From Rhodanobacter sp. (GTDB lineage: Bacteria > Pseudomonadota > Gammaproteobacteria > Xanthomonadales > Rhodanobacteraceae): a DNA stretch of 64,000 nt. The notes under the pieces are model-generated. The model was not told where the DNA came from and ran no database searches. It saw only the letters and a program-made list of their open reading frames with translations. This document shows, piece by piece, positions 39,316-55,516 of this stretch. Each line of letters opens with the position of its first letter. The first letter of the stretch is position 1. The DNA lies in the NCBI GenBank assembly GCA_004298045.1, contig SCRM01000016.1, positions 248,001 to 312,000 on the forward strand, written 5' to 3'. The position numbers and the translations under genes are program-made.

Positions 39316-40674
39316 TTACGCCACGCCGAGGCCTTCGATGCCGCCGATGGCGGTGCCGTCGAAGCCGGCCAGTTCGGCAAACACGCGCCCGCGCTCGGCG
39401 TAGTTCTTGAACTCGTCGAAGCTTGGCGCGCCGGGCGAAAGCAGCACGACACCGCCGGCGGGCGTGACCGTGCGCGCCATCGCCACCGCGTCGGCAAAGT
39501 CCTCCGCCTCGCCGAGCGGTACGGTAGCTTTCGCCGTGCGCAGCGCCTGCGCAATGCGCGGCCCATTCGCGCCCTGCGCAACGATGCGCAGGTGCGCATG
39601 ATCCTTGAATGCGGCGACGAAATCGCTCCAATCGAGCCCGCGGTCGAAACCGCCGACAATCACGGTCACCTCGCGTCCGGCCAGGCTGTCGATCGCCGCG
39701 TGGGTGGCCTTGGGCGTGGTGCTGATCGAATCGTTGACCCAATCCAGCCCGTCACGCGTACCGAGCCCCTGCAGGCGGTGCGGCAGCGGGTGGAAACTGG
39801 CCAGTGCCGGTGCCGCCGCACGGGCGTCGAAACCGAGCAGTTCCAGCGCCGTCAGCGCGGCGCACGCATTGAGCGCGTTGTGCACGCCGGGCGCCGGCAG
39901 GTCGGCGAGCTTGAACACCCGCTCCGCGCCGCAGCGGATCGCGTCGCCTGCGACGTGCCACCCTTCGGCCACGCCAAACAACTTGCGCTGCACGTGGTCC
40001 GCGGTGTGCGCCAGGAGATTCTGCTGCAAACCGTTGACCAGCAGCGTGCGCGACACGTCGGCCAGTTTCAGCTTGTCGGCCACGTAACGCTCGGCGCTGC
40101 CGTGCCAGTCAAGATGCTCCTCATACAGGCTGGTGACGACCCCCAGCTCGACCGGGCCGGCGTCACCTGTCTGGAAACTCGACAGCTCGATCACCCACAG
40201 GTCGGCAGTCTGGTCGTCCAGTTCCAGCAGCGGCATGCCGATGTTGCCGGCCAGCGCGGTACGCACGCCAAGGCTGCGCGCAAGGTGCGCCAGCATCGAG
40301 GTCGTGGTGCTCTTGCCCTTGGTACCGGTGACGGCCACCACGCGCGCATCCGGGTGATCGCCAAACCACAGCGCGGTGCCGGAGGTGAACACCGTGCCCT
40401 GCGCCTGCGCGGTAACGATGGCCGGCTTGTAGATCGACACTCCGGGCGACTTCACCACCACGTCGTAGGCGGAAAGCGCGACGGCTTCGGGTTCGTGCGC
40501 GTAGACCTTGAGCGTCGCGTCAAACGCCTGTGCCGCAGCGGCTTCGCTTTCGCGGCAGTACACCGCCAGCGCAAATCCGGGCAATTGCACGCGAATCGCG
40601 TGGATTGCCGCGCGCGCTTCGCGGCCAAATCCCCACACCGCAACGCGCCGGCCGGCAAGCTCGGCAATGCGCAT
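39316..40674 (-). CDS. murD2: UDP-N-acetylmuramoyl-L-alanine--L-glutamate ligase (MurD2)
   Basis: Mur-ligase of 452 residues: Rossmann-like N-terminal domain (MRIAELAGRRVAVWGFGREARA), central ATPase domain with VAVTGTKGKSTTTSMLAHLARS, ELSSFQTGD and YEEHLDWHGS, and the C-terminal domain with DSISTTPKATHAAIDSL and LLSPGAPSFDEFKNYAERG. It resembles MurD, but the adjacent murL marks it as MurD2, which attaches L-glutamate rather than D-glutamate to UDP-MurNAc-L-Ala. This pathway is known from Xanthomonas oryzae. Its ATG shares a base with the murL stop (TGATG). Confidence 0.88.
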   Translation of the reverse strand: MRIAELAGRRVAVWGFGREARAAIHAIRVQLPGFALAVYCRESEAAAAQAFDATLKVYAHEPEAVALSAYDVVVKSPGVSIYKPAIVTAQAQGTVFTSGTALWFGDHPDARVVAVTGTKGKSTTTSMLAHLARSLGVRTALAGNIGMPLLELDDQTADLWVIELSSFQTGDAGPVELGVVTSLYEEHLDWHGSAERYVADKLKLADVSRTLLVNGLQQNLLAHTADHVQRKLFGVAEGWHVAGDAIRCGAERVFKLADLPAPGVHNALNACAALTALELLGFDARAAAPALASFHPLPHRLQGLGTRDGLDWVNDSISTTPKATHAAIDSLAGREVTVIVGGFDRGLDWSDFVAAFKDHAHLRIVAQGANGPRIAQALRTAKATVPLGEAEDFADAVAMARTVTPAGGVVLLSPGAPSFDEFKNYAERGRVFAELAGFDGTAIGGIEGLGVA

Positions 40675-42029
40675 CAACCAATGGCCTTCAGCGCACCCTG
40701 AAACCGTGCGGGCACATGATGCTCGGCGGCTGGCTCAAGCCACGGTTCGAGCGCGAGCTGAGCCACGCCGAGCTGCGGCAGGATGGTTTCGCGGAAGCGC
40801 GCGACCAGCGCATCCTCGCTCCACTCCGGCCGTTGGCTCAGCGCATACATCGCAGCGCGTGCCTCGGCGCCCTCGCCCACGCATTCGAACGGCTTGTGCT
40901 CGTGGTACTCCAGCAATGCATCGAACCCGTCGGCCAAGGTCTCATCGTCCAGCAGGTTGCGGCCAAAGATCGACAACAAGCGCGGCTTGGGCAGGAACGG
41001 CGCCAGGGCCAGAAACACGAAGTGGCATTTTGGGCATTGCCCGCACCAGCGGTCGGCAGGTTTGGGGCCGATCAACTTGAAGTTGCGGTTGCAGCTGGAG
41101 AACACGTCGAAGTACGGCGTGAGGCGCGCAAACGCACGGGTGATCGCCAGCTCCGAGAACGGTCGCAGCAGCGAGAAATAATCGAGGTCGGCCGCCACAT
41201 GCGCGTGCAGCCAGGCGCCAAAGCGCTGCTCATAGGCACTGCCCTTGCTCCACTGGTGGTTGACCTGCTGGCCATCGTATTCAAGCGTGGCCGCCGAGGC
41301 CGAACGCTCGTTGGCGAACGCGATCGAGTCGTAGCCGTAAAGAATGGCGGCCACGGCAAGGATCGCCGAGTTCACCGCGGTCACCGGAATGTGGCCATTC
41401 CACGCGCCAAGACGGTTCAGCTCGAACAGCTCCGGCGCCAGCTCGCGCCCGATGTTGAGCGTGGGCAAGCCGGTCGCCGCGGCACACGTGGCAATGAGGT
41501 CGGAGTGGCCGACCCATGCCGCGGTGGCTTCGCCGCCGATGGCCTTGATCGCTTCCACCGCCACCAGCGAGTCCTTGCCCCCGCCAATCGGAACGAGAGT
41601 GCGCGCAGGGAGGTCGAGCGCGGGGGCTCGCGCCCCCTCACTCCGGGTGGACGAGGAAGCCGCGCGCGGGAACTGGATGCGGCCGCGCAGATCGAGATGG
41701 TTGCGGTACGCAAACTCGGCCAAGCCGTGCAGGTACAGCGCATCGAGCAAATCCGCCGTGTCGGCATCGAGTGCGCCATCAAGCAGCTCGATCTTCGGCG
41801 GCACGCCAGCCTTGTAGTAGCTGACGCCGGCAACCAGGTGCAGCAGCTTCAGCGCCGCATCGAACGCGGCTCGACGCTCCGGCGACAACGATGGCGCATC
41901 CGGAAAGCGGATGCGCTCGATGAGCGGCGCACCATCGTCAAACGCATATGCCAGCTCGGCCACGCCATCGGCGTAACGCGCATGGAGGAAGCGGAACGTC
42001 TGGGTCAGTCGCGGTTGGGTAGTGGTCAC
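40674..42029 (-). CDS. murL: UDP-N-acetylmuramoyl-L-alanyl-L-glutamate epimerase
   Basis: Protein of 451 residues. It has a PP-loop-like ATP site LVPIGGGKDSLVAVEAIKAIGG near residues 147-168. A Cys-rich region CNRNFK...CGQCPKCHFVFLALAPF (about 310-340) is also typical. MurL uses ATP to epimerise the L-Glu residue of UDP-MurNAc-L-Ala-L-Glu to D-Glu, replacing the free-D-glutamate route through glutamate racemase (MurI). The start is GTG, overlapping the stop of the DUF559 gene. Its partner MurD2 follows at once. Confidence 0.88.
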   Translation of the reverse strand: MTTTQPRLTQTFRFLHARYADGVAELAYAFDDGAPLIERIRFPDAPSLSPERRAAFDAALKLLHLVAGVSYYKAGVPPKIELLDGALDADTADLLDALYLHGLAEFAYRNHLDLRGRIQFPRAASSSTRSEGARAPALDLPARTLVPIGGGKDSLVAVEAIKAIGGEATAAWVGHSDLIATCAAATGLPTLNIGRELAPELFELNRLGAWNGHIPVTAVNSAILAVAAILYGYDSIAFANERSASAATLEYDGQQVNHQWSKGSAYEQRFGAWLHAHVAADLDYFSLLRPFSELAITRAFARLTPYFDVFSSCNRNFKLIGPKPADRWCGQCPKCHFVFLALAPFLPKPRLLSIFGRNLLDDETLADGFDALLEYHEHKPFECVGEGAEARAAMYALSQRPEWSEDALVARFRETILPQLGVAQLALEPWLEPAAEHHVPARFQGALKAIG

Positions 42030-42427
42030 AGGTCGATCTCCGCGGAATGTTCCCTCTCCCCTCCGGGGAGAGGGCTGGGGTGAGGGGCCGGGCTGGCCAC
42101 AGCCCCCAGCACCACCTCAAGCACGCCTTCAATAGTCGTCAATACGTCATTGTCCCAGAAACGCAGCACGCGGTAGCCAAAGGATTGCAGCTTGTGCGTG
42201 CGCGCGTCGTCGTAAACCTGTTGTACTTCATGCTGACTGCCGTCCAGCTCCACGACCGAGCCGGCATCCGGGCAGGCAAAGTCGACGATGTAGCAACCGA
42301 GCTGGTGTTGCCGGCGAAATTTCCAGCCTTGCAACTGGCGATTGCGCAACTGGCGCCAGAGCTTTTGTTCGGCGTCGGTCGAACCGGATCGCAAGCCCCA
42401 CGCCCGGTCGACATGCATGCGCTTCAT
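42026..42427 (-). CDS. DUF559 endonuclease-fold protein
   Basis: Protein of 133 residues with the DUF559 pattern: RSGSTDAEQKLWRQLRNRQL, KFRRQHQLGCYIVDFACPDAG, VVELDGSQHE and YRVLRFWDNDVL, the last three matching the Vsr/restriction-endonuclease-like metal site (D...E-x-D). Role unknown; such genes often stand alone or next to repeats. About the last 25 residues (APHPSPLPGGEREHSAEI) are read through a dispersed palindromic repeat, so the C-terminus is probably a recent extension. AAGG lies eight bases before ATG 42427. It overlaps the murL start. Confidence 0.8.
   Translation of the reverse strand: MKRMHVDRAWGLRSGSTDAEQKLWRQLRNRQLQGWKFRRQHQLGCYIVDFACPDAGSVVELDGSQHEVQQVYDDARTHKLQSFGYRVLRFWDNDVLTTIEGVLEVVLGAVASPAPHPSPLPGGEREHSAEIDL
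42051..42089. repeat. REP-like palindromic repeat
   Basis: CCCTCTCCCC (42052-42061) and GGGGAGAGGG (42065-42074) form a ten-base perfect stem with a TCC loop, followed by CTGGGGTGAGGGG. This sequence class (translated as PHPSPLPGGER or LTPALSPEGRG) recurs in many proteobacterial genomes. It lies in the 3' end of the DUF559 gene, next to murL. Confidence 0.7.
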
Positions 42428-42499
42428 GGACACGCCCTTCTTGCACCTTCGCGAGCACGCCGCACGGGCATCGCCCCTGCGGGCGAGCAAGCGAAAACG

Positions 42500-45130
42500 T
42501 CAATCCTCCAGCACCACCTCTTCCGTCTCCCCGCGCAGGTTGTAGGGCGAGGACATGACCTTGCCGTAGGCGCCGGCCTGGGCGATCAGCACCACGTCGC
42601 CCTCCTGCGGCTCGGGCAGGCGGCGGTCGCTGCCGAGGATGTCGCCCGATTCGCAGATCGGGCCGACGACCTGGAACAGGCCGGTGCCGGGCTGGTCCAG
42701 CCGGGTGAGGTTGACGATTTCGTGCCAGGCGTCGTACAGCGCGGGGCGGATCAGGCTGTTCATGCCGGTGTCCACGCCGAGGTAGCGCCAGGCGCCCTTG
42801 CCCTTGGTCTGGGTGACGTGGGTGATCAGCACGCCGGCATCGGCCACCAGGAACCGCCCCGGCTCCATCCACAACTGGTAATGCGGGTAGGCCGCCTTGG
42901 CCTGGCGCAGCACGGCGTCCAGCTCGGCCATGTCGAGCGGGGTCTCGCCGGGGTGCGAGGGCACGCCGAGCCCGCCGCCGATGTCGAGAAACGCGATGCT
43001 GCCGATGCGGTCGGCGATGCTCGCGAGCTGGCTGTGCACCTCGCCCCAGTGGCGTGCGCCGAGGATGCCGGAGCCCAAGTGCGCGTGCAGGCCGCGCACG
43101 GTGACACCATGCGCATCGGCCAGGCGCAGGAACTCATCGAGCTGATCCAGCGGCAGGCCGAACTTTGAGCCCGCGCCACCGGTGCGCACCTTTTCGTGAT
43201 GGCCGAGGCCACGGCCGAGATCCAGCCGCAGGGAAATCTCGCGACCGCGGAACAGCTCGCCCCAGTGCTCCATCGGGTGCAGCGCGTCGAGCGTCACCGT
43301 GGCGCGCGTCGCCAGGCCGCGCTCGAAATCCCCGCGCGAGGCAAAGTTCGGCGTGAACAGCAGCGGCACCGATTCGGGCACCACTTTCGCCACCGCATCC
43401 AGCTCGCCGGGCGATACGCACTCGAAGGCGAAGCCCTCCTCCACCAGCGCGCGCAGGATGGCCGGGTGGGTGTTGGCCTTGACCGCGTAATGCCAGCGGT
43501 CGACCGCGGACATGGCCTTCAGCGCACGCGCCTGATGACGCACCGTGGGCAGGTGGTAGACGTAGCGCGGCGTGCCTTGCGCGGCAAGCTTGAGCAGCCG
43601 TGCGCGCTCGGCGACGTGGCGCCACCACACGGTGGCACTGACCGGTTCGCCGGCACCGTAGAGTGCCTGCCAGCTCGGGCCGAACAGCGCGTTGTCGTCG
43701 GCGCGCAGGGCCCCTGCGGAAATCAGGAGCTCATGCAGGTGCGGCACCAGCGTGTCGACCACGTCCTCGTCGACGACGAAGGTGAGGTTCAAGTTGTTCG
43801 ACGACTGCGAGATGAGGTGCACGCGCAACTGGTCGAACTCGGCCAGCACGGTGGACAGCGTGTGCAGCATCGAACGCATGCCGCGCCCGACCAGGGTCAC
43901 CGCCGCGCACGGCGCGATCACCTTCACCCGGCAGACCTTGGCCAGGTCCGAGGCGAGCGCCGCGACCGCGTCCGAATCGAGCAGGTTCTCGGTCGGGTCG
44001 AGCGATACCGTGATGTTGGTTTCGGCCGAACTAATGAGGTCCACCGACAGCCCGTGCTTCTTGAACTGGGCGAACACGTCGGCAAGAAAACCGACCTGCT
44101 GCCACATGCCGACCGATTCCATCGACACCAGGGTGATGCCCTTGCGCGCGCTGATCGCCTTGACGCTGCGCGCATGCTCGCGCACCTGCGGGCCGATCAC
44201 CGTGCCCTCGAGCTCGGGGTGGTTGGTGTCCTTGATGAGCAGCGGCACGCGCGGTTCGCGCAGCGGCGACAGGCAGCGCGGATGCAGCACCTTGGCGCCG
44301 GTGGAGGCGATCTCCTGCGCCTCCTCGTAGTCGAGTTTCTGCAGCAGGCGTGCGGTGGGCACCTGACGCGGATTGGCGGTGAACATGCCGGCCACGTCGG
44401 TCCAGGTTTCCACCCGCAGGGCACGCAGCATCGCGCCGAAATACGCCGCCGAGGTATCCGAACCACCACGGCCCAGCAGCACCGTGCGGCCCTCCGCATC
44501 ACGCGCGATGAAACCCTGGGTGATGAACAACTCGCCCTGCCCGGCCAGCCGTGCAGCCAATACTGGATCGGGCTTCGCGTCCACCATCGCCGACAGCACG
44601 CGCGTGCGCTCGTTCTGGTTGGGCAGCGCAAAGGCGGCGAGGCATTCACGCGCGTCCACCCACCGCGTCGGCAGCCCGGCATGGGTGAGGAACGCCGCGC
44701 CGAGTGCGCTGGACATCAGCTCGCCGTGCGCCTGCACCGCCGCCGACCATGCCAGCTCGCCCGACTGCGCCGGGCCTGCGGCTGCAAGCTTTGCCAGGTC
44801 GGCCAGCCGCGCACCGAGGGTTTCCGGCATGTCCAGTTGCATGTCGGCCAAGAGTGTCTGGTGGCGTTGCGCGATCGCGCCGGCCGCCGCCTTGCGTTTG
44901 CCCTCGTCGCCCTCGGCACTGAGCTGTTTCAGCGCATCGGTAATGCCGGACAGCGCGGAAACCACCACCAGCACGCGCGCCCCTTCGGCACGGCGGCTGG
45001 CAGCCAGTTTCAGGATGTTCTGCCAACGCGGCAGGGTGGCGACACTGGTGCCGCCGAACTTCATCACGATCCAGGGGGCGTCCGCGGCAAGCGGCGCGGG
45101 GGCGTTCAAGGTCACGGTCGATCGGGCCAT
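42500..45130 (-). CDS. lysAC: Bifunctional aspartate kinase / diaminopimelate decarboxylase
   Basis: Fusion protein of 876 residues. Residues about 20-470 are aspartokinase (WIVMKFGGTSVATLPRW; TEN-type ACT domains near 320-460), the first step of the Asp family. Residues about 490-870 are diaminopimelate decarboxylase, the last step to lysine, with the PLP lysine K551 in YAVKANTHP, the HAHLGSGI and GPICESGDILG motifs, and the substrate-binding C-terminus GAYGKVMSSPYN. This fusion is known in Xanthomonadales. No lysine riboswitch was recognised upstream. The ATG at 45130 lacks a good ribosome binding site, and the TTG at 45172 is an alternative. It lies 72 bases upstream of the DUF559-murL-murD2 run. 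Confidence 0.95.
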   Translation of the reverse strand: MARSTVTLNAPAPLAADAPWIVMKFGGTSVATLPRWQNILKLAASRRAEGARVLVVVSALSGITDALKQLSAEGDEGKRKAAAGAIAQRHQTLLADMQLDMPETLGARLADLAKLAAAGPAQSGELAWSAAVQAHGELMSSALGAAFLTHAGLPTRWVDARECLAAFALPNQNERTRVLSAMVDAKPDPVLAARLAGQGELFITQGFIARDAEGRTVLLGRGGSDTSAAYFGAMLRALRVETWTDVAGMFTANPRQVPTARLLQKLDYEEAQEIASTGAKVLHPRCLSPLREPRVPLLIKDTNHPELEGTVIGPQVREHARSVKAISARKGITLVSMESVGMWQQVGFLADVFAQFKKHGLSVDLISSAETNITVSLDPTENLLDSDAVAALASDLAKVCRVKVIAPCAAVTLVGRGMRSMLHTLSTVLAEFDQLRVHLISQSSNNLNLTFVVDEDVVDTLVPHLHELLISAGALRADDNALFGPSWQALYGAGEPVSATVWWRHVAERARLLKLAAQGTPRYVYHLPTVRHQARALKAMSAVDRWHYAVKANTHPAILRALVEEGFAFECVSPGELDAVAKVVPESVPLLFTPNFASRGDFERGLATRATVTLDALHPMEHWGELFRGREISLRLDLGRGLGHHEKVRTGGAGSKFGLPLDQLDEFLRLADAHGVTVRGLHAHLGSGILGARHWGEVHSQLASIADRIGSIAFLDIGGGLGVPSHPGETPLDMAELDAVLRQAKAAYPHYQLWMEPGRFLVADAGVLITHVTQTKGKGAWRYLGVDTGMNSLIRPALYDAWHEIVNLTRLDQPGTGLFQVVGPICESGDILGSDRRLPEPQEGDVVLIAQAGAYGKVMSSPYNLRGETEEVVLED

Positions 45131-45782
45131 GGTTGCGGGGAAAAGATTCCCGCGAGTGTTGCGCTGCGGCAAAACAATTGCAAGATGGGCAACGCGCTTG
45201 ATTTATGGACGTTTAGGCGTCTGTTGCAGACGAACGCGGGCCACCGACGCACAGCCTTGCCGGCATGGCATGCATCATCCGGCGGCCCATTCCGGGTCGC
45301 GTGGGCCGCCCTATGCCATCGTGCGCGTCGGCCGGGGCACCCAGCCTGCGCCCCTGCGCACTTCCACGCACAAGACACCACTTTGTCTGCAACGATCAAC
45401 GTCCTGCCCGACGGACACACGCCTGCCCGGCAACGCATCGCCAGTCACCAGCGGGAGGCCGACGGCGTGCGGCGCAGCGAAAGGGGCAAGCACTCGTCCC
45501 CCCCCCCACCCGAGCACCGACGTGACCACCCTGCGCAAGCTGTCGACCAACCTTGCTGGTCACCACCCTGACGACCCCGCGCTCACTGCCAGCCCGGAAT
45601 CGGGCTGCGTCGGCGTGGCCAAGCCACTTGCTCCCCGGTAGCCGCCGAGCTCGCGTCATGGGCACTTCAAGGGCAGCCCACCTGCGGGCAATCGTTCCTT
45701 TTGCGCGCCATTCAGCGCCGCGCATCCCCACCTTGGGCGCGGCGATGCCACAATGCGCGCGATCAATTCGAGGAGATTCCGC
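45131..45782 (+). other. 652-base intergenic region between lysAC and the molybdenum-hydroxylase operon
   Basis: Short open frames exist on both strands but none has convincing codon use and a ribosome binding site. It contains a small hairpin CGTCTG / CAGACG near 45217-45231 and a nine-C run (45498-45506). It must hold the promoters for both divergent units, but I find no confident -35/-10 pair. It may contain gene remnants. Confidence 0.45.
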
Positions 45783-46319
45783 ATGGCGAGCGCCCAGGCC
45801 CACGGCGTGCCCACGACACCCGAAGGCAGCATCACGCCCGCCACCGCGCGCGCCGGTATCGACCTCATGGTAAACGGCGAAGCCTTCCGCCACACCGGCG
45901 ATCCGCAACAGCCGTTGCTGTGGTATCTGCGCGACACCCTGCGCCTGACCGGCACCAAATACGGTGGCGCGCACGGCGAGAACGGGGCCGACCTGGTGCT
46001 GGTGAACGACCGTCTCGTCCCGGCCATCACCGTGCCGATGGCCAAGCTTGCGCACAAGCACGTCACCACCGTCGAAGGACTGGCCAGCAGGGATGGCTCG
46101 CTGCACCCCCTGCAGCAGGCCTTTATCGACGAGGACGCGATTGGTTGCGGCTACTGCACACCCGGCTGGCTGATGGCCGGCGTCGATCTCTTGCGCCACA
46201 AGCCCAACCCGGGTGACACCGACATCGACCAGCTCACCAACACCTGCCGCTGCGGCTGCCAGACGCGGGTGCGCGCCGCGATCAAGCGCGCGGCCGCAAG
46301 CATGGCCGCGCACGCATGA
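45783..46319 (+). CDS. (2Fe-2S)-binding subunit of a molybdenum-hydroxylase family enzyme, N-terminal cluster cysteines lost
   Basis: Protein of 178 residues shaped like the small subunit of isoquinoline 1-oxidoreductase/xanthine dehydrogenase-type enzymes. The ferredoxin-like domain (36-100) reads LTGTKYGGAHGENGAD where the family has cysteines: positions 62, 67, 70 and 82 are G, N, D and I at the exact Cys spacing. The second, helical [2Fe-2S] domain is intact, with C122 and C125 in CGYC and C155 and C157 in CRCGC. GAGGAG lies eight bases before the ATG. The stop overlaps the large-subunit start by four bases (ATGA), so the two form one complex. Confidence 0.88.
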   Translation: MASAQAHGVPTTPEGSITPATARAGIDLMVNGEAFRHTGDPQQPLLWYLRDTLRLTGTKYGGAHGENGADLVLVNDRLVPAITVPMAKLAHKHVTTVEGLASRDGSLHPLQQAFIDEDAIGCGYCTPGWLMAGVDLLRHKPNPGDTDIDQLTNTCRCGCQTRVRAAIKRAAASMAAHA

Positions 46320-48583
46320 GTCACCCAACCGCAAACGGTATCCAGCTTTCACGCCGGCGTTTTCTGCAGATCATCGCCGGCACCGCCGGTGCGCTGGTGG
46401 TGGGGGTGCGCATGGCGGACGCCGGTGAACCACCGTTGCCGCCGCAATGGCTGGGCGACCATTTTCACGAGCTGGGCGCCTACGTGCGCATCGACCAGGA
46501 AGGCAATGTGCTGGTCGGCGCGCGTGACCCGGAGACCGGCACCGGCGTCGCTACCGCCCTGCCGATGATTGTTGCCGACGAGCTGGACGCCGACTGGAAC
46601 CGCGTCAGCGTGGTGCAGCTCGGCCTCGGCGTCGGCGCTGGCGACAACGGCAAGCCGCAGTGGACGTATGGTCGTCAGCGCGGCGGCACCGGCGACTCGA
46701 TCCCCGCCGCATGGGGCGATCTGCGTCAGGCCGGCGCCCTCGCCCGCTGGCTGCTCACCCAGGCTGCCGCGCGCCGGCTCGGCGTTGCCGCCGACCGCCT
46801 GCGCTGCGAAGCCGGTACGGTGATCGCCCCCGACGGTCGTCGCGTCACCTACGGCAGCCTGGCTGACGACGCCAGCAAGCTCGACCTGCCGCAGCAGGCG
46901 CCGCCGGTCAAAACCCCCGACCGTTACACCTTGATCGGAAAACCGGTGGGCGATGTCGATGCGCATGCCATCGTCACCGGGCAGGCCAAATACACCATCG
47001 ACCACTATGAGGCGGACGAGCTGGTCGCCGTGCTGCTGCACTGCCCGTGGCCCGACGGCTCACTCGCCCGCATCGACACTGCGCCGGCGCTGGCCGTCAA
47101 GGGCGTGGTCAAGGTCATGCAGCTGCGCCCCGAGCCCGGTCAGGCGCCGGGGCAAACTGTCGGCGCGCCGGCCATCGCGGTGCTGGCGGAAAACACCTGG
47201 GCAGCACTGGAAGGCCGCGCCAAGCTCGCCTGCGACTGGAACCCCGGCAAGGCCACGGCCGCCGACAGCACTGCGTTTGAGCAGCAGGCCAACGCGCTGC
47301 TCGGTGGCGACGCCGCACCCACCACGCGCGTGCGCGACGACGGCGACGTGGTCAAGGCCGGCAAACGCGCCGCGCGTCGGCTTGAAGCCACGTACTACCA
47401 GCCCTGGCTGGCGCACGCCTGCCCGGAAACCATGAACTGCCTGGCCGTGATCGAACAGGATCACGCGCGGCTGGTAGTGCCCACGCAAGCCCCGCAAGCC
47501 GCCTATGCGGTGGTGCAACGCTTGACCGGATTGCCGCCGGACAAGATCGAGATCCGCGTGCCGCGCGTCGGCGGCGGCTACGGGCGCCGGTTGGATCACG
47601 ACTACGTCGCCGAGGCGGTGCTGCTGGCCAAGGCGGCGGGCAAGCCGATCCGCTTGCTGTGGACGCGCGACGAGGACCTCACCCACGACTATTACCGCTC
47701 CGCCTGCGTGCACAAGCTCGGCGCCACACTGGATCGCAAGCGGCGCATCGTCGGCTGGACCCAGCGCATGGCCAGCGCTTCCGCACTCGACGGGCGCGGC
47801 GTACCCGCCGACCACCTGTGGACCAGCGAAGTCGCCGCCAATCAGTTGCCGGCCGGCCTCGTGCCCAACTGCCGCAGCGACTGGTATGCCTTGCAGTCCG
47901 CGCTGCCGCGCGGTCCGTATCGCGCCATGCCGCACCTCGCCAACGCATTTGCAGTGGAAAGTTTCCTGGACGAAATCGCGCACGCATCGCGCGAAGATCC
48001 GCTGGTCACCCGCATGCGCCTGCTGGGTGCGCCCCGCAACGTGCCGCTGGGCAACGGCGCCACGCTTGACGTCGGCCGCCTGCGCAATGTGCTGCAACAA
48101 GTGGCCGACCGCATCGGCTGGAAAGACTGGCTGCGCAGCGTGAACGGACTGGGCATCGCCTGCTGGCACATGGATGGCGCGTATGTGGCGCACGCGCTGG
48201 AAGTCTCGCGCCAGGGCGAAGTGCTCACCATCGAGCGTGCCGTATGCGCGGTCGACGTTGGCCGCGTGGTGAATCCGCTCGGCCTGCAGGGTCAGGTGGC
48301 CGGCGCCACACTCGATGCATTGTCCACCGCCATGAACCTTGCCATCACCTGCAAGGACGGCAAGGTCCAGCAGCGCCACTGGAAGGATTACCCGCTCGCC
48401 AACATGGCGCAGCTGCCAAACGCGGTGGAGGTGATCGTTGCCGGCGCCGATCGCCCGCCGACCGGCGCGAGCTTTCTCGCCATGCCCACGGCGGCCCCCG
48501 CGCTCGCCAACGCCATCTTCCGGGTCAGCGCGGTGCGCGTGCGCCGGCTGCCGTTGATGAAGGAGTTTTTGCGGCTGTTCTGA
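46316..48583 (+). CDS. Molybdopterin-binding subunit, isoquinoline 1-oxidoreductase beta/xanthine dehydrogenase-like, catalytic Glu replaced
   Basis: Protein of 755 residues with a twin-arginine signal (SRRRFLQIIAGTAGALVVG at residues 12-30), so exported folded with cofactor. It shows the two aldehyde-oxidase/IorB-type molybdopterin domains: VGGGYGRRLDHDYVAEAV, LPRGPYRAMPHLANAFAVESF and the C-terminal APALANAIFRVSAVRVRRLPL. In the family this C-terminal stretch is preceded by G-x-G-E with the catalytic Glu; here it reads GASFLAMP, with Phe at residue 720. The electron-acceptor cytochrome that often completes such operons is absent nearby. Confidence 0.88.
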   Translation: MSHPTANGIQLSRRRFLQIIAGTAGALVVGVRMADAGEPPLPPQWLGDHFHELGAYVRIDQEGNVLVGARDPETGTGVATALPMIVADELDADWNRVSVVQLGLGVGAGDNGKPQWTYGRQRGGTGDSIPAAWGDLRQAGALARWLLTQAAARRLGVAADRLRCEAGTVIAPDGRRVTYGSLADDASKLDLPQQAPPVKTPDRYTLIGKPVGDVDAHAIVTGQAKYTIDHYEADELVAVLLHCPWPDGSLARIDTAPALAVKGVVKVMQLRPEPGQAPGQTVGAPAIAVLAENTWAALEGRAKLACDWNPGKATAADSTAFEQQANALLGGDAAPTTRVRDDGDVVKAGKRAARRLEATYYQPWLAHACPETMNCLAVIEQDHARLVVPTQAPQAAYAVVQRLTGLPPDKIEIRVPRVGGGYGRRLDHDYVAEAVLLAKAAGKPIRLLWTRDEDLTHDYYRSACVHKLGATLDRKRRIVGWTQRMASASALDGRGVPADHLWTSEVAANQLPAGLVPNCRSDWYALQSALPRGPYRAMPHLANAFAVESFLDEIAHASREDPLVTRMRLLGAPRNVPLGNGATLDVGRLRNVLQQVADRIGWKDWLRSVNGLGIACWHMDGAYVAHALEVSRQGEVLTIERAVCAVDVGRVVNPLGLQGQVAGATLDALSTAMNLAITCKDGKVQQRHWKDYPLANMAQLPNAVEVIVAGADRPPTGASFLAMPTAAPALANAIFRVSAVRVRRLPLMKEFLRLF

Positions 48584-48635
48584 ACGGCACCAACCGACAA
48601 CGCTCTTCGCGAAGTTACTGTCCGCCAGGCGCCGA

Positions 48636-50264
48636 TCACGCCGCATCCGGGGCCGGCACCTCCAGCACCACTTCGCCGTTGCCGTCGGCATCGACGCTCT
48701 CCAGCCGTACCGGGAAACCCCACAACCGCGCGACGTGCTTGAGCACTTCGCGCGTGTCGTCGGCCAGCGGATGGTTGCGATAACGCACATGGCGCAGGGT
48801 CAGGCAGCGGTCACTGCGACGGTTGACGTTCCACACCTGGATGTTCGGCTCGCGCACACCCACGTCATACTGGCGCGAAAGCATCTGGCGCAGTTCGAGA
48901 TAACCCTCTTCGTCGTGGATCGCGCCCACCGTGAGCGTTGGCTCGTTTTCGTCGTCGTGGATCGCGAACAAACGCAGGTCGCGCATCAGCTTCGGGCTCA
49001 GATACTGGTCGATGAAACTCTCGTCCTTGAAGTTGCGCATCGCGTAATCCAGCGCGGGCAACCACGGCGAGCCGGCAAGGTCCGGAAGCCAGCGCTTGTC
49101 CTCGGCCGTCGGCGCCTCGCACACGCGGCGGATATCGCGGTACATCGAAAATCCCAGCGTGTAAGGATTGATGCCGTTGTACGCCGGGTGGTCAATCGGT
49201 GGCTGATACACCACGTTGGTATGCGAGGAAAGCCATTCGAGCATCACCCCGTCGGTCAGATAGCCCTCGTCATACAGCGCATTCATCAACGTGTAATGCC
49301 AGAACGTGGCCCAGCCCTCGTTCATCACCTGGGTTTGGCGCTGCGGGTAGAAGTACTGTGCAATCTTGCGCACGATGCGCACCACTTCCCGTTGCCAGGA
49401 TTCCAGCAGCGGCGCGTTCTTCTCGATGAAATACAGCACGTTTTCCTGCGGCTCGCGCGGAAAGCGCTCGTCTTCCGCCGGCGCCCCTTCCTTGTCCGAC
49501 CGCGTCGGCAAGGTGCGCCACAGGTCGTTCACCTGCTGCTGCGCATACCGCCGCCGCTCTTCGCGCTCGGCCAGTTCGCGCGCCAGCGAACGCTTGGCCG
49601 GGCGGCGATAGCGGTCCACTCCCACGGTGGCCAGCGCGTGGCAAGAATCAAGCAGTTGCTCGACCGCATCGTAGCCGTGGCGCTCCTCGCAACGCGCCAC
49701 GTAATCGCGCGCATAGACCAGGTAATCAATGATCGACGACGCGTCGGTCCACATGCGAAACAGATAATTGCCCTTGAAGAAACTGTTGTGCCCATACGCC
49801 GCATGGGCAATCACCAGCGCCTGCATCGCGGTGGTGTTTTCCTCCATCAGGTAACTGATGCACGGGTTGGAGTTGATGCATATCTCGTATGCCAGCCCCA
49901 TGTGCCCGCGCCGGTAATTGCGTTCGGTGGCGAGAAACGCCTTGCCGAAACTCCAGTGGCGGTAATTCACCGGCATGCCGACGCTGGAGTAGGCATCCAT
50001 CATCTGCTCGGAACTGATGATTTCGAGCTGGTTCGGGTAGGTGTCCAAGCCAAACCGGCGCGCTGTCTCGGCAATGACCTTGTGGTAACGCTCGATCAGG
50101 TCGAACGTCCAATCGCTGGGGTCGGGCAGCGGCTGAGCTGGGCGCTCACCGGCCGGCAACGGCTCGCGCGGCACCTCCTGGCGGCGCCGTTCGCCCATGC
50201 GTGCCACCACACGCGGGTCTTCTCCCACCCGCCGTTCGATGGCGGGGTACAGGATGGGGTTCAT
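48636..50264 (-). CDS. SpoVR family protein (YcgB-like)
   Basis: Protein of 542 residues starting MNPILYPAIERR. It has the SpoVR signature LIERYHKVIAETARRFGLDTYPNQLEIISSEQMMDAYSSVG and NYRHWSFGKAF, with SNPCISYLMEENTTAMQALVIAHAAYGHNSFFKGN further on and NEGWATFWHYTLMNALY. Named for a Bacillus spore-cortex gene, but in proteobacteria it belongs to the RpoS-type stress operon with prkA and yeaH; the molecular role is unknown. The ATG overlaps the yeaH stop. Confidence 0.94.
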   Translation of the reverse strand: MNPILYPAIERRVGEDPRVVARMGERRRQEVPREPLPAGERPAQPLPDPSDWTFDLIERYHKVIAETARRFGLDTYPNQLEIISSEQMMDAYSSVGMPVNYRHWSFGKAFLATERNYRRGHMGLAYEICINSNPCISYLMEENTTAMQALVIAHAAYGHNSFFKGNYLFRMWTDASSIIDYLVYARDYVARCEERHGYDAVEQLLDSCHALATVGVDRYRRPAKRSLARELAEREERRRYAQQQVNDLWRTLPTRSDKEGAPAEDERFPREPQENVLYFIEKNAPLLESWQREVVRIVRKIAQYFYPQRQTQVMNEGWATFWHYTLMNALYDEGYLTDGVMLEWLSSHTNVVYQPPIDHPAYNGINPYTLGFSMYRDIRRVCEAPTAEDKRWLPDLAGSPWLPALDYAMRNFKDESFIDQYLSPKLMRDLRLFAIHDDENEPTLTVGAIHDEEGYLELRQMLSRQYDVGVREPNIQVWNVNRRSDRCLTLRHVRYRNHPLADDTREVLKHVARLWGFPVRLESVDADGNGEVVLEVPAPDAA

Positions 50265-51529
50265 GTCTCCACCCCCTCTTTGCGGAACAGCTCGCGAAAC
50301 ACCGGGTAGATCTCGTTCGGGGCACCCACCTTGCGCATCGCGAAATTGTCGAACTGCGCCTGCAGCGCGGTGTACGCCTGCCACAGGTTTTGCTCCTCTT
50401 CGGCCACCTGCACGTAGGCGAAGTAACGCAACTGCGGCAGGATCGTCTCCGCCAGCAGCCGGCTGCAGTCGTCGCTGTCACCGGGGAAGTTGTCGCCGTC
50501 GCTGGCCTGTGCCACGTAGAGGTTCCACTCACCCGCCGGGTAGCGCGCTGCGATGATTCGCGCCAGCAATTCCAGCGCGCTGCTGACCACGGTGCCGCCG
50601 CTTTCGGTGGCATGGAAAAATGTGTTCTCGTCGACCTCGCTCGCCTGCGTGTGGTGGCGGATGAAGATGATGTCGATCTTTTCGTAATGCCGGGTCAGGA
50701 ACAGGTACAAGAGGATGAAAAAGCGCTTGGCGAGCTCCTTGCGCGCCTCATCCATCGACCCGGAAACGTCCATGACGCAGAACATGGCTGCGCGCGTGAT
50801 CGGTACCGGCACCCGCGTGTGCGCGCGAAACCGCAGGTCGATCGGGTCGATGTACGGCATATGCTGCAGGCGCTCGCGCAGCACCTTGATCTGCTGCCGC
50901 AGCGCGTGCGCCGCATCGCCATCGTCTTCACCCTTGGCCACCAGCGCGGCTAGCGCCGCCTCCATCTCCGCCAGCTCGCGGCCGGGCCGCTTTGCCAGCG
51001 CAATGCGCCGCCCCAGCGCCTGGCGCATCGTGCGCACCACGGCGAGATTGTGCGGTGTCCCATCGGTGCTGAACCCCGCGCGGCGCGTCTTCCACTGCCG
51101 ATGGTCGCCGACGTGGGTGCGCATCAGGCGCGGCAATTCCAAGTCGTCAAAGAAGAGCTCCATGAACTCCTCTTTGCTCAGCGTAAAGGTGAAGTCGTCC
51201 TCGCCTTCGCCCTGGTTGCTGGCTTGCGACCCGCGGCCACCGGCGCCGCCCTGCGGGCGTTCGATGGTGTCGCCGCGCACGTAATCCTTGTTGCCGGTGT
51301 ATACCGTGTCGCGCACGCCGCCGCGTCCGTGGTGAAACGTCGGCTCGCTGATGTCCTTGCGCGGGATGCTGACCGACTCGGATTGCTCGATGTCGCGGAT
51401 GCCACGACTGGACACTGCCCGACGCGCGGCTTCCGCGATCTGCGCCTTGTAGCGACGCATGAAGCGCTCACGGTTGCCGACCGACTTGTTGCGACCCGAA
51501 AGCCTGCGATCAATGATCTGTACAGCCAT
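50261..51529 (-). CDS. DUF444 protein, YeaH/YhbH family
   Basis: Protein of 422 residues. The N-terminus is basic and disordered (MAVQIIDRRLSGRNKSVGNRERFMRRY). The C-terminal half is VWA-like, with the MIDAS-type VMDVSGSMDEARKELAK and a later SGGTVVSSALEL. In Bacillus and E. coli it works with the PrkA kinase. The Gly-rich stretch GGAGGRGSQ (about 95-103) is a flexible linker. It is the middle gene of prkA-yeaH-spoVR. Confidence 0.94.
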   Translation of the reverse strand: MAVQIIDRRLSGRNKSVGNRERFMRRYKAQIAEAARRAVSSRGIRDIEQSESVSIPRKDISEPTFHHGRGGVRDTVYTGNKDYVRGDTIERPQGGAGGRGSQASNQGEGEDDFTFTLSKEEFMELFFDDLELPRLMRTHVGDHRQWKTRRAGFSTDGTPHNLAVVRTMRQALGRRIALAKRPGRELAEMEAALAALVAKGEDDGDAAHALRQQIKVLRERLQHMPYIDPIDLRFRAHTRVPVPITRAAMFCVMDVSGSMDEARKELAKRFFILLYLFLTRHYEKIDIIFIRHHTQASEVDENTFFHATESGGTVVSSALELLARIIAARYPAGEWNLYVAQASDGDNFPGDSDDCSRLLAETILPQLRYFAYVQVAEEEQNLWQAYTALQAQFDNFAMRKVGAPNEIYPVFRELFRKEGVET

Positions 51530-51558
51530 TCCCTACCTCCCTTGGCACGGTGAATGGC

Positions 51559-53481
51559 TCAACTGCTCTTGCGTACGCGCAAATACCATTCGCACAACAG
51601 ACGCACCTGCTTGGGCGTGTAGCCCTTGGCCACCATGCGCGAGACGAAATCCTCGTGCTTGCGCGCGTCCTCGGCGCTGGCCTTGGCGTTGAAGCTGATG
51701 ACGGGCAGCAGCTCCTCGGTATTCGAGAACATCTTCTTCTCGATCACTACGCGCATCTTTTCGTAGCTGGTCCAGCTCGGGTTGCGACCTTGGTTGTTCG
51801 CGCGTGCACGCAGCACGAAGTTGACGATCTCGTTGCGGAAATCTTTGGGGTTGGCGATGCCGGCCGGCTTTTCGATCTTCTCCAGCTCGGCGTTCAGTGC
51901 CACCCGGTCGAACACCTCGCCGGTGTCGGTGTCGCGGTATTCGTTGTCCTGGATCCAGTAATCGGCATAAGTGACGTAGCGGTCGAAGATGTTCTGCCCG
52001 TACTCGCTATAGCTTTCCAGATACGCCGTCTGGATTTCCTTGCCAATGAACTCGGCATAGCGCGGCGAGAGGTACTCCTTGATGAAACCGATGTACTTGG
52101 TTTCCAGCTCGGCGGGGAACTGCTCGCGCTGCACCTGTTGTTCGAGCACGTACATGAGGTGTACCGGGTTGGCCGCCACCTCGGCGCTGTCGAAATTGAA
52201 CACGCGCGAGAGGATCTTGAACGCAAATCGCGTGGAGATGCCGGTCATGCCCTCGTCGACGCCGGCGTAGTCGCGGTACTCCTGATAGCTCTTTGCGCGC
52301 GGGTCGGTGTCCTTGAGATTCTTGCCGTCGTACACCTGCATCTTGCTGAACAGGCTGGAGTTCTCCGGCTCCTTGAGGCGCGTGAGCACGGCAAAGCGCG
52401 CCATCATCTTGAGCGTGCCGGGCGCGCATACCGCATCGCCGAGCGACGATTCGCGGATCAGCTTCTCATAGATCTTGACCTCTTCGGACACCCGCAGGCA
52501 GTACGGCACCTTGACGATATAGATACGGTCGAGAAACGCCTCGTTGTTGCGGTTGTTGCGGAACGCCGTCCATTCGCTTTCGTTGGAGTGCGCCAGCACG
52601 ATGCCGTCGAACGGAATCGCGCCGAAACCCTCGGTGCCTTTGTAATTGCCTTCCTGCGTGGCGGTCAGCAACGGATGCAGCACCTTGATCGGCGCCTTGA
52701 ACATCTCGACGAATTCCAGCAGGCCCTGGTTGGCCAGGCACAAACCGCCGGAATAGCCGTAGGCGTCGGTGTCGTCCTGCGCAAAGTTTTCCAGCTTGCG
52801 GATGTCGACCTTGCCGACTAGGCTCGAAATATCCTGATTGTTCTCGTCGCCGGGCTCGGTCTTGGCGATGGCGATCTGCTTCAGGATGCTCGGGTAGCGC
52901 TTCACCACGCGGAACTTGCGGATGTCGCCGCCGAACTCCTCCAGCCGCTTCACCGCCCATGGCGACAGCACGCGATGCAGATGCCGGCGCGGGATGCCGT
53001 ACTGCTCTTCCAGCACCGGGCCATCCTCGACCGGGTCGAACAGGCCCAGCGGCGACTCGTTCACCGGCGAGCCTTTCAGCGCGTAGAACGGCACCTTTTG
53101 CATAAGGTACTTCAGGCGGTCGGCAATCGAGCTCTTGCCGCCGCCGACCGGGCCGAGCAGATACAGGATCTGCTTGCGCTCCTCCAGGCCCTGCGCCGCA
53201 TGGCGGAAAAACGCGACCACCTGCTCGATCGCCTCCTCCATGCCGTAGAACTCGGAAAACGCGGGATAACGGCGGATGACCTTGTTGGCGAAGATGCGCG
53301 ACAACCGCGGATCGTTGCGGGTGTCCATCATCTCCGGTTCGCCGATCGCCGTGAGCATGCGCTCGGATGCCGTGGCGTAGGCCATCGGATCGGTCTTGCA
53401 CAAGGCGAGATAGTCGTCGATCGACATCTCCTCCTCGCGGCCTTGGGCGTAACGCGCGGTGAAGCGGCTGATCGCATCCAT
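51559..53481 (-). CDS. prkA: PrkA-type serine protein kinase / AAA+ ATPase (YeaG)
   Basis: Protein of 640 residues, about the size of E. coli YeaG (644). The AAA+ domain has the Walker A LGPVGGGKSSIADRLK (about 107-122) and later IVLAHSNESEWTAF; the C-terminal PrkA domain resembles a kinase fold (about 480-640). It has been described as a Ser/Thr kinase and, in Bacillus, as a Lon-like protease. Its expression in enterics is under RpoS and nitrogen control. GGAGG lies a few bases before ATG 53481. First gene of a three-gene operon. Confidence 0.95.
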   Translation of the reverse strand: MDAISRFTARYAQGREEEMSIDDYLALCKTDPMAYATASERMLTAIGEPEMMDTRNDPRLSRIFANKVIRRYPAFSEFYGMEEAIEQVVAFFRHAAQGLEERKQILYLLGPVGGGKSSIADRLKYLMQKVPFYALKGSPVNESPLGLFDPVEDGPVLEEQYGIPRRHLHRVLSPWAVKRLEEFGGDIRKFRVVKRYPSILKQIAIAKTEPGDENNQDISSLVGKVDIRKLENFAQDDTDAYGYSGGLCLANQGLLEFVEMFKAPIKVLHPLLTATQEGNYKGTEGFGAIPFDGIVLAHSNESEWTAFRNNRNNEAFLDRIYIVKVPYCLRVSEEVKIYEKLIRESSLGDAVCAPGTLKMMARFAVLTRLKEPENSSLFSKMQVYDGKNLKDTDPRAKSYQEYRDYAGVDEGMTGISTRFAFKILSRVFNFDSAEVAANPVHLMYVLEQQVQREQFPAELETKYIGFIKEYLSPRYAEFIGKEIQTAYLESYSEYGQNIFDRYVTYADYWIQDNEYRDTDTGEVFDRVALNAELEKIEKPAGIANPKDFRNEIVNFVLRARANNQGRNPSWTSYEKMRVVIEKKMFSNTEELLPVISFNAKASAEDARKHEDFVSRMVAKGYTPKQVRLLCEWYLRVRKSS

Positions 53482-53716
53482 ACTTCCCTCCCGATGCAGC
53501 GCCTCGCGGGCAAGGGACTCGGGCGACGCTGCGCAACAGCTGAAAGACGGCACCGATGATCTGATGCCAACCGTGGACGGTACGTGAGACCTGTCCGCGG
53601 TGCGAAACGTTCCTTGCGGTTGCGGCGCAGGTCGGTGCGGGTGAGAAACGTCGACGTCGCCGCACGGGCGCCGCTGCCAGAGACATTCGGTGGCACGCAC
53701 CGCAGATGTCGATTTT

Positions 53717-55516
53717 TTAGTGGAACTGATCGCTTGCGGGAGCCCATGAACTCGATGCATTCGCGGGGTGCACCGGTTTCATCGTCGACGGCGTGTCCGG
53801 CGGTGGGCAGCCGGGTGGCAGCGGACCGCCGCTGACGCGCGCCGCAGCGCACAGCGCGGCATTGCCGAGTTCCACCGGCGCACCTGGCTTGGCTGCGCTG
53901 GCCGATGGCGCGGGCGTTGCAGTGCGCGGCACCGCACCGCCTTCGGGTGATGGCTGATTCAAGCGGTCGTAGAGTCTTTGCGGTTGCGGCGGAGGCGGCG
54001 GATCGGGGTTCTTGCAACCGAGCAGTGCCACCGGTACCAACGGCATCACGCTGCATTCGATGCGAATGCCACGTGGCAGGTGAAAGGTGTGCTTGATCGT
54101 GGTCTTTTCGGCGGCACGTCGCAACGCGGTATCCACCGAACTTTCGCCTTCCGGCGTCCAGTACGGGTCGAACTGCGTGGGCTTGTAGCCAATGCCCTTG
54201 ATCTTGTGCTCCATGATCGTGGCATCGCCGGTCGGCTTGAGCTGCACGTAATCGGGCACGCCGCTGGCCAATGCGGATTTGCTGCCCGATGGTGAGCCCG
54301 GCCCGGCACCGCTCGGTACGCTGCCACCAGCGGGACGCTGGCCAGCAGCGACGCTTTGCGCAGTGCCTTGCGCAACGCCGGGCACCGCGTCGTTGCGGCC
54401 CTGCGCGTTGGCGTTGGGCGCACTGCTGACGTCGCTGGCACTGCCGGCGGCGGTGGGCGACCCGGCGGCCGGCTCGGCACGACTCACCGCAGCCACCGGC
54501 GCCACTGCCTGCTCCACGTGGCCGAGTCCGGCGTCGTGCGCCAGCTTGACCGTGGCTTGCACCGGGGCGGCGATGGCTGGCGCCGTTGGCGTCACGGTGG
54601 GGATCGCCGCCGGTGGCACCTCGATCGGCGCATCGAGTTTCGGCGCCTGCGGCTTGGCGAGCGGTTGCGGTGCCGGCATCGAGGGTTTGTTGAGCGCAGT
54701 GGCGTCGAGGTTCACGGTGGGCGCCTTGGGCGCAGCGACCGGTACCGCCTGCAAGGTTGCCTCCGGCGCCGCCGGCGGCAATGCGACCGCCATGGCCGGC
54801 GCCAGCATGGGCCGCGGTGCGGGCGGTGCAATGCGATCCAGTGCCGGGGTGGGTATCGCCATCTTCGGCGCGGAAGGCGTCGGCACATCAGGCAGCGCCA
54901 GCGACGGCGGCGGTGGAATCGGCTGGTTGCCCTCGGCCTGTGGCGCACGCAACGGCTTGGGCTGGAATTTGGGTGGCACCGGCGGCTGCACGGTTGGTAC
55001 TGGCAGCGCAATCGGGGGCGTCTGCGCGCTGACCTGCACCGGCGAAAGATCCGCCGCCACCTGAGGCAGGCTTGGCGTCGGCTTGGGTGCGGCAGCGGTC
55101 TTGGCCGGCGCCAGCGGAGCCCTTGCCGGCAACGCGCGCGCCGCCGCACTGGTAGCTCCTGGTGCGGCGGCGCTGCCGCGGTGCACCGGGCCAATCTTGC
55201 GCGGCACCTCACCCTTGGGCGGCGTCACGTCGGGCACTGCAACAAACCGCACCTGCATCTTGGCCGGCGGCACCGCTTGCGCCGGCGGCGGCTCATAGGC
55301 CGGACCGAGCACGAACGCAAACAGGAACACCAGTTGCGCCAGCAAGCTGCCGACCCAGGCAATTACCCGCTGCCACGCCATCGGCGGGCGCGGACGCCGC
55401 CACGCCTGATAGCCGAGCATGCGCGGAGCCGCGGCCAGCGGCGAGTTCAACAACACTTGCGCCGGGCGCATGTCCGGGCGAGATGCGCCAGCGGGATCGG
55501 GAGACAGCGACGACAT
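53717..55516 (-). CDS. Proline/alanine-rich membrane-anchored repetitive protein
   Basis: Protein of 599 residues. A cytoplasmic lead of about 48 residues with MAWQRV is followed by one membrane segment (VIAWVGSLLAQLVFLFAFVLG, about 51-71). Then some 330 residues of Pro/Ala/Lys-rich low-complexity sequence (PPVPPKFQPKP and similar) resemble a TonB-like periplasmic spacer. A conserved-looking domain lies at about 425-500 (YVQLKPTGDATIMEHKIKGIGY and RAAEKTTIKHTFHLPRGIRIECS). It matches proteins called transmembrane repetitive protein in xanthomonads. Role unknown. Confidence 0.75.
   Translation of the reverse strand: MSSLSPDPAGASRPDMRPAQVLLNSPLAAAPRMLGYQAWRRPRPPMAWQRVIAWVGSLLAQLVFLFAFVLGPAYEPPPAQAVPPAKMQVRFVAVPDVTPPKGEVPRKIGPVHRGSAAAPGATSAAARALPARAPLAPAKTAAAPKPTPSLPQVAADLSPVQVSAQTPPIALPVPTVQPPVPPKFQPKPLRAPQAEGNQPIPPPPSLALPDVPTPSAPKMAIPTPALDRIAPPAPRPMLAPAMAVALPPAAPEATLQAVPVAAPKAPTVNLDATALNKPSMPAPQPLAKPQAPKLDAPIEVPPAAIPTVTPTAPAIAAPVQATVKLAHDAGLGHVEQAVAPVAAVSRAEPAAGSPTAAGSASDVSSAPNANAQGRNDAVPGVAQGTAQSVAAGQRPAGGSVPSGAGPGSPSGSKSALASGVPDYVQLKPTGDATIMEHKIKGIGYKPTQFDPYWTPEGESSVDTALRRAAEKTTIKHTFHLPRGIRIECSVMPLVPVALLGCKNPDPPPPPQPQRLYDRLNQPSPEGGAVPRTATPAPSASAAKPGAPVELGNAALCAAARVSGGPLPPGCPPPDTPSTMKPVHPANASSSWAPASDQFH

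Follow-up and report, generated by a model that had tools for sequence, protein, structure and literature searches.

What function can a protein pair have that retains the fold of an XO-family hydroxylase and lacks both the catalytic glutamate and one of the two [2Fe-2S] clusters? This question is raised by two overlapping genes in a stretch of 64,000 nucleotides from Rhodanobacter sp., which is called the window in the following. From comparisons with related sequences, we consider it quite probable that the operon encodes a Tat-exported, molybdenum-free pseudoenzyme heterodimer with one iron-sulfur cluster.

The large subunit and its lost catalytic glutamate

The large subunit (46316..48583, plus strand, 755 residues) is assigned by profile and phmmer matches to the XO-family molybdopterin-binding fold (IorB/AldH-like), and the MoCoBD fold is confirmed by PF02738 (3.4e-29, 102.1 bits) and PF20256 (3.3e-18, 66.6 bits). 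A competent XO-family hydroxylase carries the catalytic Glu of the GxGE motif, and this residue is missing here. The codons at 48464..48478 (plus strand) read GASFL, residues 717-721, and F720 (codon 48473-48475) is placed in the column of the catalytic Glu because the phmmer alignment with 8gy3_C, an aldehyde dehydrogenase large subunit (E 8e-56), sets PTGASFLAMPTAAPALANAIF beneath PTGLGEPGVTVVAPAIGNAIF. The motif alignment is anchored by the APALANAI stretch (residues 727-734, 48494..48517, plus strand). The first-pass annotation had proposed just this, i.e. a GASF segment with Phe720 replacing the catalytic Glu, a retained APALANAI stretch and an ATGA overlap of the two subunit genes, which is located at 46316-46319, and all of it holds at the level of the codons. 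A catalytic Glu elsewhere in the large subunit was considered and rejected, as none of the 19 positions that are newly fixed in the GASF clade is Asp or Glu. These 19 fixed swaps, which distinguish 17 Glu-keeping from 50 GASF-clade sequences, include Q76T, S126G, F422Y, H617W, G719S and E720F.

Near the N-terminus, the large subunit has the twin-arginine signal S12-R-R-R-F-L-Q18 (46349..46369, plus strand), in which R13 and R14 are invariant in 52 sequences. The twin-arginine motif is the signal for Tat export, and its conservation marks the protein as a Tat substrate.

The small subunit and its two [2Fe-2S] sites

The small subunit (45753..46319, plus strand, 188 residues) combines a degenerate plant-ferredoxin-like (Fer2) domain, for which the profile search of this protein gave no Fer2 match, with an intact Fer2_2 [2Fe-2S] domain. 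At the positions of the former ligands of the first cluster (45966..46028, plus strand) we find G72 (45966-45968), N77 (45981-45983), D80 (45990-45992) and I92 (46026-46028), and the second key-site loss that had been noted for this operon is thus a real one. The ligands C132, C135, C165 and C167 of the other cluster (46146..46253, plus strand) are retained, so that four of the eight ligand cysteines of a two-cluster XO-family hydroxylase are absent. This pattern is not a peculiarity of one protein: the lost-cluster positions hold four Cys in Glu-keeping relatives and no Cys in 31 of 31 GASF-clade members from genomes without molybdenum cofactor (Moco) genes, and all four cysteines of the second cluster are present in these 31 as well as in 19 of 19 members from Moco-positive genomes, i.e. 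in 50/50 aligned sequences. Two other loci of one lineage, L036 (genome G018) and L179 (G420), exhibit another kind of degeneration, with broken Fer2_2 ligands (PTGYAQP or PTGYVQP, and CRDG); in L036, the Glu motif is PAAD and the ferredoxin Cys are still present.

Between the same 17 Glu-keeping and 50 GASF-clade sequences, eight small-subunit swaps are fixed, including C80D, Q131G, Q136T and Q139W. Because positions in both the large and the small subunit are fixed to new residues, the comparison suggests that the site may have been rebuilt rather than left to free decay. For what purpose might it have been rebuilt? A molybdenum enzyme with altered chemistry is one conceivable outcome, in which Moco would still be bound and F720 would reshape the site for a non-hydroxylating reaction. 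The preserved fold would suit such an enzyme, as would Q391, G419-G421 and Q660, which are kept in the large subunit of 11 aligned GASF members, but Q76 (the Gln of GQG in the large subunit) and small-subunit Q131 (the Gln before the first Fer2_2 Cys), both of which we take to be pterin contacts in XO-family enzymes, are replaced.

Spread in the family and order of the losses

The pair had been singled out as the window's candidate for an undescribed system, and in this sense it turned out not to be peculiar to the window. With all motif types included, a match at E <= 1e-130, which in some genomes may be a close paralog instead of the ortholog, is present in 222 of the 233 genomes of the Rhodanobacteraceae, the window's family. 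Across the order, 71 of 398 genomes matched a degenerate DNA pattern designed for GASF; two of the matches, outside the family (G094, G188), are spurious, with a stop or a Cys in place of the Ser. Named relatives, among the 80 listed of 93 that matched the pattern, belong mostly to Rhodanobacter, Dyella, Frateuria and Fulvimonas. The first-pass annotation had recommended a search for other members with non-Glu residues, and this search was productive: in a tally of 201 loci, with overlapping loci counted separately, 130 rows read GASF, two GASL (one gene twice) and one AASF, and further motifs were found. Since none of the 130 GASF rows has a Cys in the Fer2 stretch and the small subunit is present for 129 of them, a sequencing error, chance or a private mutation can be excluded, and the trait is clade-wide. 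In the alignment of the GASF clade, 18 of 19 members from MoaE-positive genomes (window included) and 31 of 31 from Moco-lacking genomes have the GASF motif, the latter figure describing uniformity inside the clade from which these rows were picked rather than the Moco-less genomes at large.

The relatives show in which order the sites may have been lost. Ferredoxin Cys are retained in the 17 GAGE rows of the 201-locus tally, and they are also retained in the groups with GASV, GASI, GAST, GATG, GAFA/GAFD, GAED and others, in which the Glu is changed. Loss of both the Glu and the ferredoxin Cys is confined to the GASF clade, in which the GASL and AASF rows are included. We therefore infer a stepwise path that would lead from Glu with four ferredoxin Cys via GASV/GASI with four Cys to GASF with none. 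Scored by residue, a tree of 83 rows requires at least five changes of the Glu; the trees used here come from rapid searches and contain 23 weak forks. The comparison of motifs and ligands omitted L048/L049 as repeats and also the large subunit of L025/L050, which is split; its 17 Glu-keeping rows comprise 15 GAGE and two GGGE, and three rows of a mixed group of 28 keep the Glu (one GGDE, two DAYE) and seven have Asp at this position. Apart from this, a contig labelled Candidatus Eremiobacteraeota (L106, a MAG) contains a 70% identical GASF copy and is probably misbinned, and the large-subunit matches in G391 (L178; residues 301-754) and G420 (L179; residues 8-524) are partial, due to truncation or a contig problem.

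Persistence of the pair without molybdenum cofactor genes

Moco synthesis is patchy across the family. MoaE (PF02391) is missing in 60 of 233 genomes and present in 173. MoaA (PF06463) and MoeA (PF03453) were searched in 42 of the 60 MoaE-less genomes, the other 18 being mostly less complete, and found to be absent in 41 and 39 of these 42, respectively; the exceptions are G436 with both genes, and G411 and G416 with MoeA only. Positive controls returned MoaA and MoeA in 7/7. All three genes are missing in 39 genomes, which therefore should make no molybdopterin, and every one of these 39 has kept the large subunit, with the motif GASF in 32, GAED in three, GASI/GAST in two and LAMH/DPAW in two. 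Completeness is 99% or higher in the 32 triple-negative GASF genomes, seven of which are single contigs. Both proteins could be aligned for 31 of the 32, all with GASF and all four cysteines of the kept cluster; in the 32nd (G212), GASF is known from the DNA pattern match only.

Because orthologs persist without MoaE, MoaA and MoeA, neither Moco carriage nor molybdenum chemistry can be the shared function of the clade. Two of the three readings that the first-pass annotation had offered, a cofactor carrier and an enzyme with a different, molybdenum-based chemistry, fail on this ground. The exclusion covers the shared function of the clade; it does not directly rule on Moco binding in the window's species, as the window's own genome, which is not among the 39, contains two copies each of MoaA, MoaE and MoeA. 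A protein for the carriage, storage or sensing of Moco, for which the fold relationship is the sole argument, is contradicted as the clade's shared function by genomes that keep the pair where no Moco pathway was found, and we regard it as scarcely credible. The altered molybdenum enzyme introduced above would be compatible with the presence of MoaE in the 173 genomes, the window's own included, but it would have to do without Moco in the 32 triple-negative GASF genomes.

The maturation factors point in the same direction. As a rule, XO-family enzymes depend on chaperones of the XdhC family (XdhC/PaoD) for their maturation (PMC2997495). Unlike the E. coli PaoABC system with XdhC/PaoD, 19 of 28 genomes lack XdhC (PF02625), and these are the 19 with only one MoCoBD_1 protein, whereas XdhC occurs in exactly those nine that have two or more MoCoBD_1 matches and so hold another XO-family protein (Fisher p 1.4e-7 for the 28 genomes, with relatedness not corrected). 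The window's genome (95.91% complete, 22 contigs) belongs to those in which the degenerate protein stands alone; there was no match to PF02625, and its Moco genes presumably serve another enzyme. Together with the 32 orthologs and the replaced glutamines, the missing XdhC makes an altered molybdenum chemistry improbable.

Is the loss of the Glu linked to the loss of Moco? Among 73 family rows on one tree, all 20 Glu-keeping rows come from MoaE-positive genomes, and the 53 non-Glu rows (seven of them with Asp) are from 31 MoaE-positive and 22 MoaE-negative genomes. This association is confounded by descent, and an independent-pairs test was not significant (five pairs, median p 1). Moco presence changes its state at least 17 times on the gene tree, and the pair is therefore retained in the presence and in the absence of Moco alike.

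Selection and gene integrity

A pair without its active site could also be a decaying remnant, i.e. a pseudogene that is about to be lost. Sister groups do have many different non-Glu motifs, ligands of the second cluster are also missing in L036 and L179, and there are two damaged copies: a large subunit split over two frames in one genome (G010:C1:1132739-1134999; L025, L050), which is either a frameshift or an assembly error, and a partial second copy of the C-terminal part of the large subunit in another (G014:C26:438-779; 62% identical, one in-frame TGA), which lies near an intact gene. Against this stand the match in 222 of 233 genomes, with no internal stops among the full-length matches listed in that search, and a motif that is fixed at F (rarely L) throughout the GASF clade. 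The window's pair itself has neither a disrupted frame nor signs of neutral evolution. Pairwise Nei-Gojobori estimates (dS-filtered, mean dN over mean dS) gave dN/dS 0.33 for the 31 Moco-minus (371 pairs) and 0.385 for the 19 Moco-plus GASF-clade sequences, window included (142 pairs), and higher values of 0.48 for the 17 Glu-keeping (84 pairs) and 0.57 for the mixed 28 (82 pairs), all of which are rough upper values that do not lend themselves to a close comparison of the groups, because the high GC3 (0.85-0.95 in three genes checked) understates dS. Runs filtered by amino-acid identity, which the dS-filtered runs supersede, had resulted in lower ratios (0.127 for the GASF large subunit, 0.241 for Moco-minus, 0.249 for Moco-plus), as this filter biases the ratio downward. 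The pair is under purifying selection, and decay of the genes is very improbable.

The constraint is unevenly distributed within the small subunit. In Moco-minus members, the domain of the kept cluster has a dN/dS of 0.23 vs 0.43 in the domain of the lost cluster and is thus the more constrained of the two.

Gene neighbourhood and the LAT-type exchanger

If the pair is maintained by selection, its neighbours may indicate for what. In the window, the divergent neighbour is lysAC (42500..45172, minus strand, from the profile search), a bifunctional aspartate kinase / diaminopimelate decarboxylase gene that adjoins the pair in 24 of 67 listed loci with flanks of varying length; it is a frequent neighbour and not part of the system. 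Genes for SpoVR, DUF444 and PrkA, which we take to be a cluster of the yeaGH-ycgB type, follow directly downstream in the window (48636-53760, minus strand), and none of the three was matched near the pair in the same 67 loci. Riboswitches and other RNA families were looked for in six loci and at the window's positions 40000-55000, and no match reached the gathering level.

A more specific lead is provided by a permease. A LAT-type gene is found just upstream on the same strand in 65/74 GASF, 8/8 GASV, 2/2 GAED and 4/6 GAGE loci, a tally restricted to loci with at least 1.6 kb upstream and made without L054-L073 and L196-L201, most of which had been retrieved because of these very genes. The gap between the ends of the LAT and pair matches is mostly 28-303 bp, and 630 and 742 bp in two GAED loci. 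The best models for the permease are TIGR00911 (L-type amino acid transporter, below the curated cut-off) and BasC (6f2g), and the gene at L075:2063-3382 may serve as an example of such a BasC-like amino-acid exchanger. In L084, there is an apparent deletion remnant of the upstream LAT gene.

It is therefore tempting to see in the pair a partner that assists a LAT-type amino-acid exchanger or binds its substrate, in loose analogy to 4F2hc/rBAT of the animal LATs, ancillary chains that look like dead enzymes. This analogy would draw on the conserved linkage and on the kind of permease, but the link is one of gene adjacency, it is older than the loss of the Glu, and the LAT gene is missing at the pair's locus in the window and in eight other genomes of the same genus, which all keep the pair and each have a 56-57% identical LAT paralog elsewhere. 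No clear relaxation of the pair is seen where the upstream LAT gene is lost: in three dS bins, dN/dS at LAT-less vs LAT-bearing loci was 0.28 vs 0.38 (20 and 22 pairs), 0.19 vs 0.34 (6 and 204 pairs) and 0.28 vs 0.20 (2 and 4 pairs). As an explanation of the pair, a partnership with the exchanger is thus possible and on the whole rather unlikely.

A proposed molybdenum-free binding heterodimer

How might the molybdenum-free pseudoenzyme heterodimer that we favour function? Its ancestor would have been a periplasmic XO-family hydroxylase, and the descendant would work without the molybdenum cofactor. The two subunits may fold around a pocket that is empty or refilled, would carry one [2Fe-2S] cluster and would be exported in the folded state. 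Instead of hydroxylating a substrate, the pair could then act by binding, be it in ligand capture, in sensing or in an accessory role. The periplasm would be the favoured site of such a role, and the LAT exchanger may be the best lead to that role. Of the three original readings, the remaining one agrees best with all this, namely a redox-inactive complex for binding or sensing; its attribute "redox-inactive" may be too strong, because 50/50 GASF-clade members retain all four Cys of the second cluster. More specifically, such a periplasmic [2Fe-2S] heterodimer might be the ancillary or ligand-capture subunit of the LAT exchanger and thereby a bacterial counterpart of the animal LAT heavy chains with an unrelated fold, as the fold of rBAT/CD98hc differs from the XO-family fold. 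This analogy is speculative, and we consider it distinctly unlikely.

Comparison with known systems

Close known systems include the IorB-like XO-family enzymes and the membrane-bound aldehyde dehydrogenase of Gluconobacter oxydans (8gy3); the latter has GLGEPG at the Glu motif, whereas the window's pair has GASFLA and has lost one cluster site. With E. coli PaoABC, the pair has the periplasmic XO-family architecture in common (PMC2997495). That an XO-family complex can assemble without Mo-pyranopterin is indicated by the entry for a CO dehydrogenase from which the Mo-pyranopterin moiety is missing (1ffu), but this is one enzyme preparation, whereas with the GASF proteins it is an entire clade in which the site was lost. 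For Salmonella, a 2025 preprint on molybdenum-independent sulfate assimilation likewise speaks of MopB-family (DMSO-reductase) enzymes that work without molybdenum (PMC12636705); they belong to another family and are, by the title of the preprint, a catalytic [4Fe-4S] enzyme, whereas no catalysis is known for the window's pair. In the heteromeric amino-acid transporters, rBAT/CD98hc are ancillary proteins paired with LATs (PMC6472337), whereas the window's clade displays a linkage at the level of the genes.

A further parallel is given by the "orphan molybdoproteins". Peng et al. 2018 described an incomplete Mo trait in several hundred organisms, most of which have orphan DMSOR- or XO-family proteins and no complete Moco pathway; no sequence feature distinguished these orphans, a Mo-independent form was thought possible, and tests of their use of Mo or W were called for (PMC6147048). 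The main text of that paper, supplements aside, names none of Rhodanobacter, Dyella or Xanthomonad (PMC6147048), and the literature searched, again without supplements, contained no account of the GASF clade. Automatic annotation would probably call these proteins molybdopterin oxidoreductases and thus wrongly count their hosts as molybdenum users. As the clade includes closely related genomes of which some have Moco genes and others do not, and as many of the named relatives are isolates, the orphan-molybdoprotein question becomes directly testable. In the 32 triple-negative genomes, though not in the window's own, the GASF proteins resemble the orphan molybdoproteins in being XO-family homologs without a complete Moco pathway in the host (PMC6147048), and what they add is a clade with clear sequence-level features, an inferred order of losses and living intermediates that range from GAGE via GASV/GASI to GASF.
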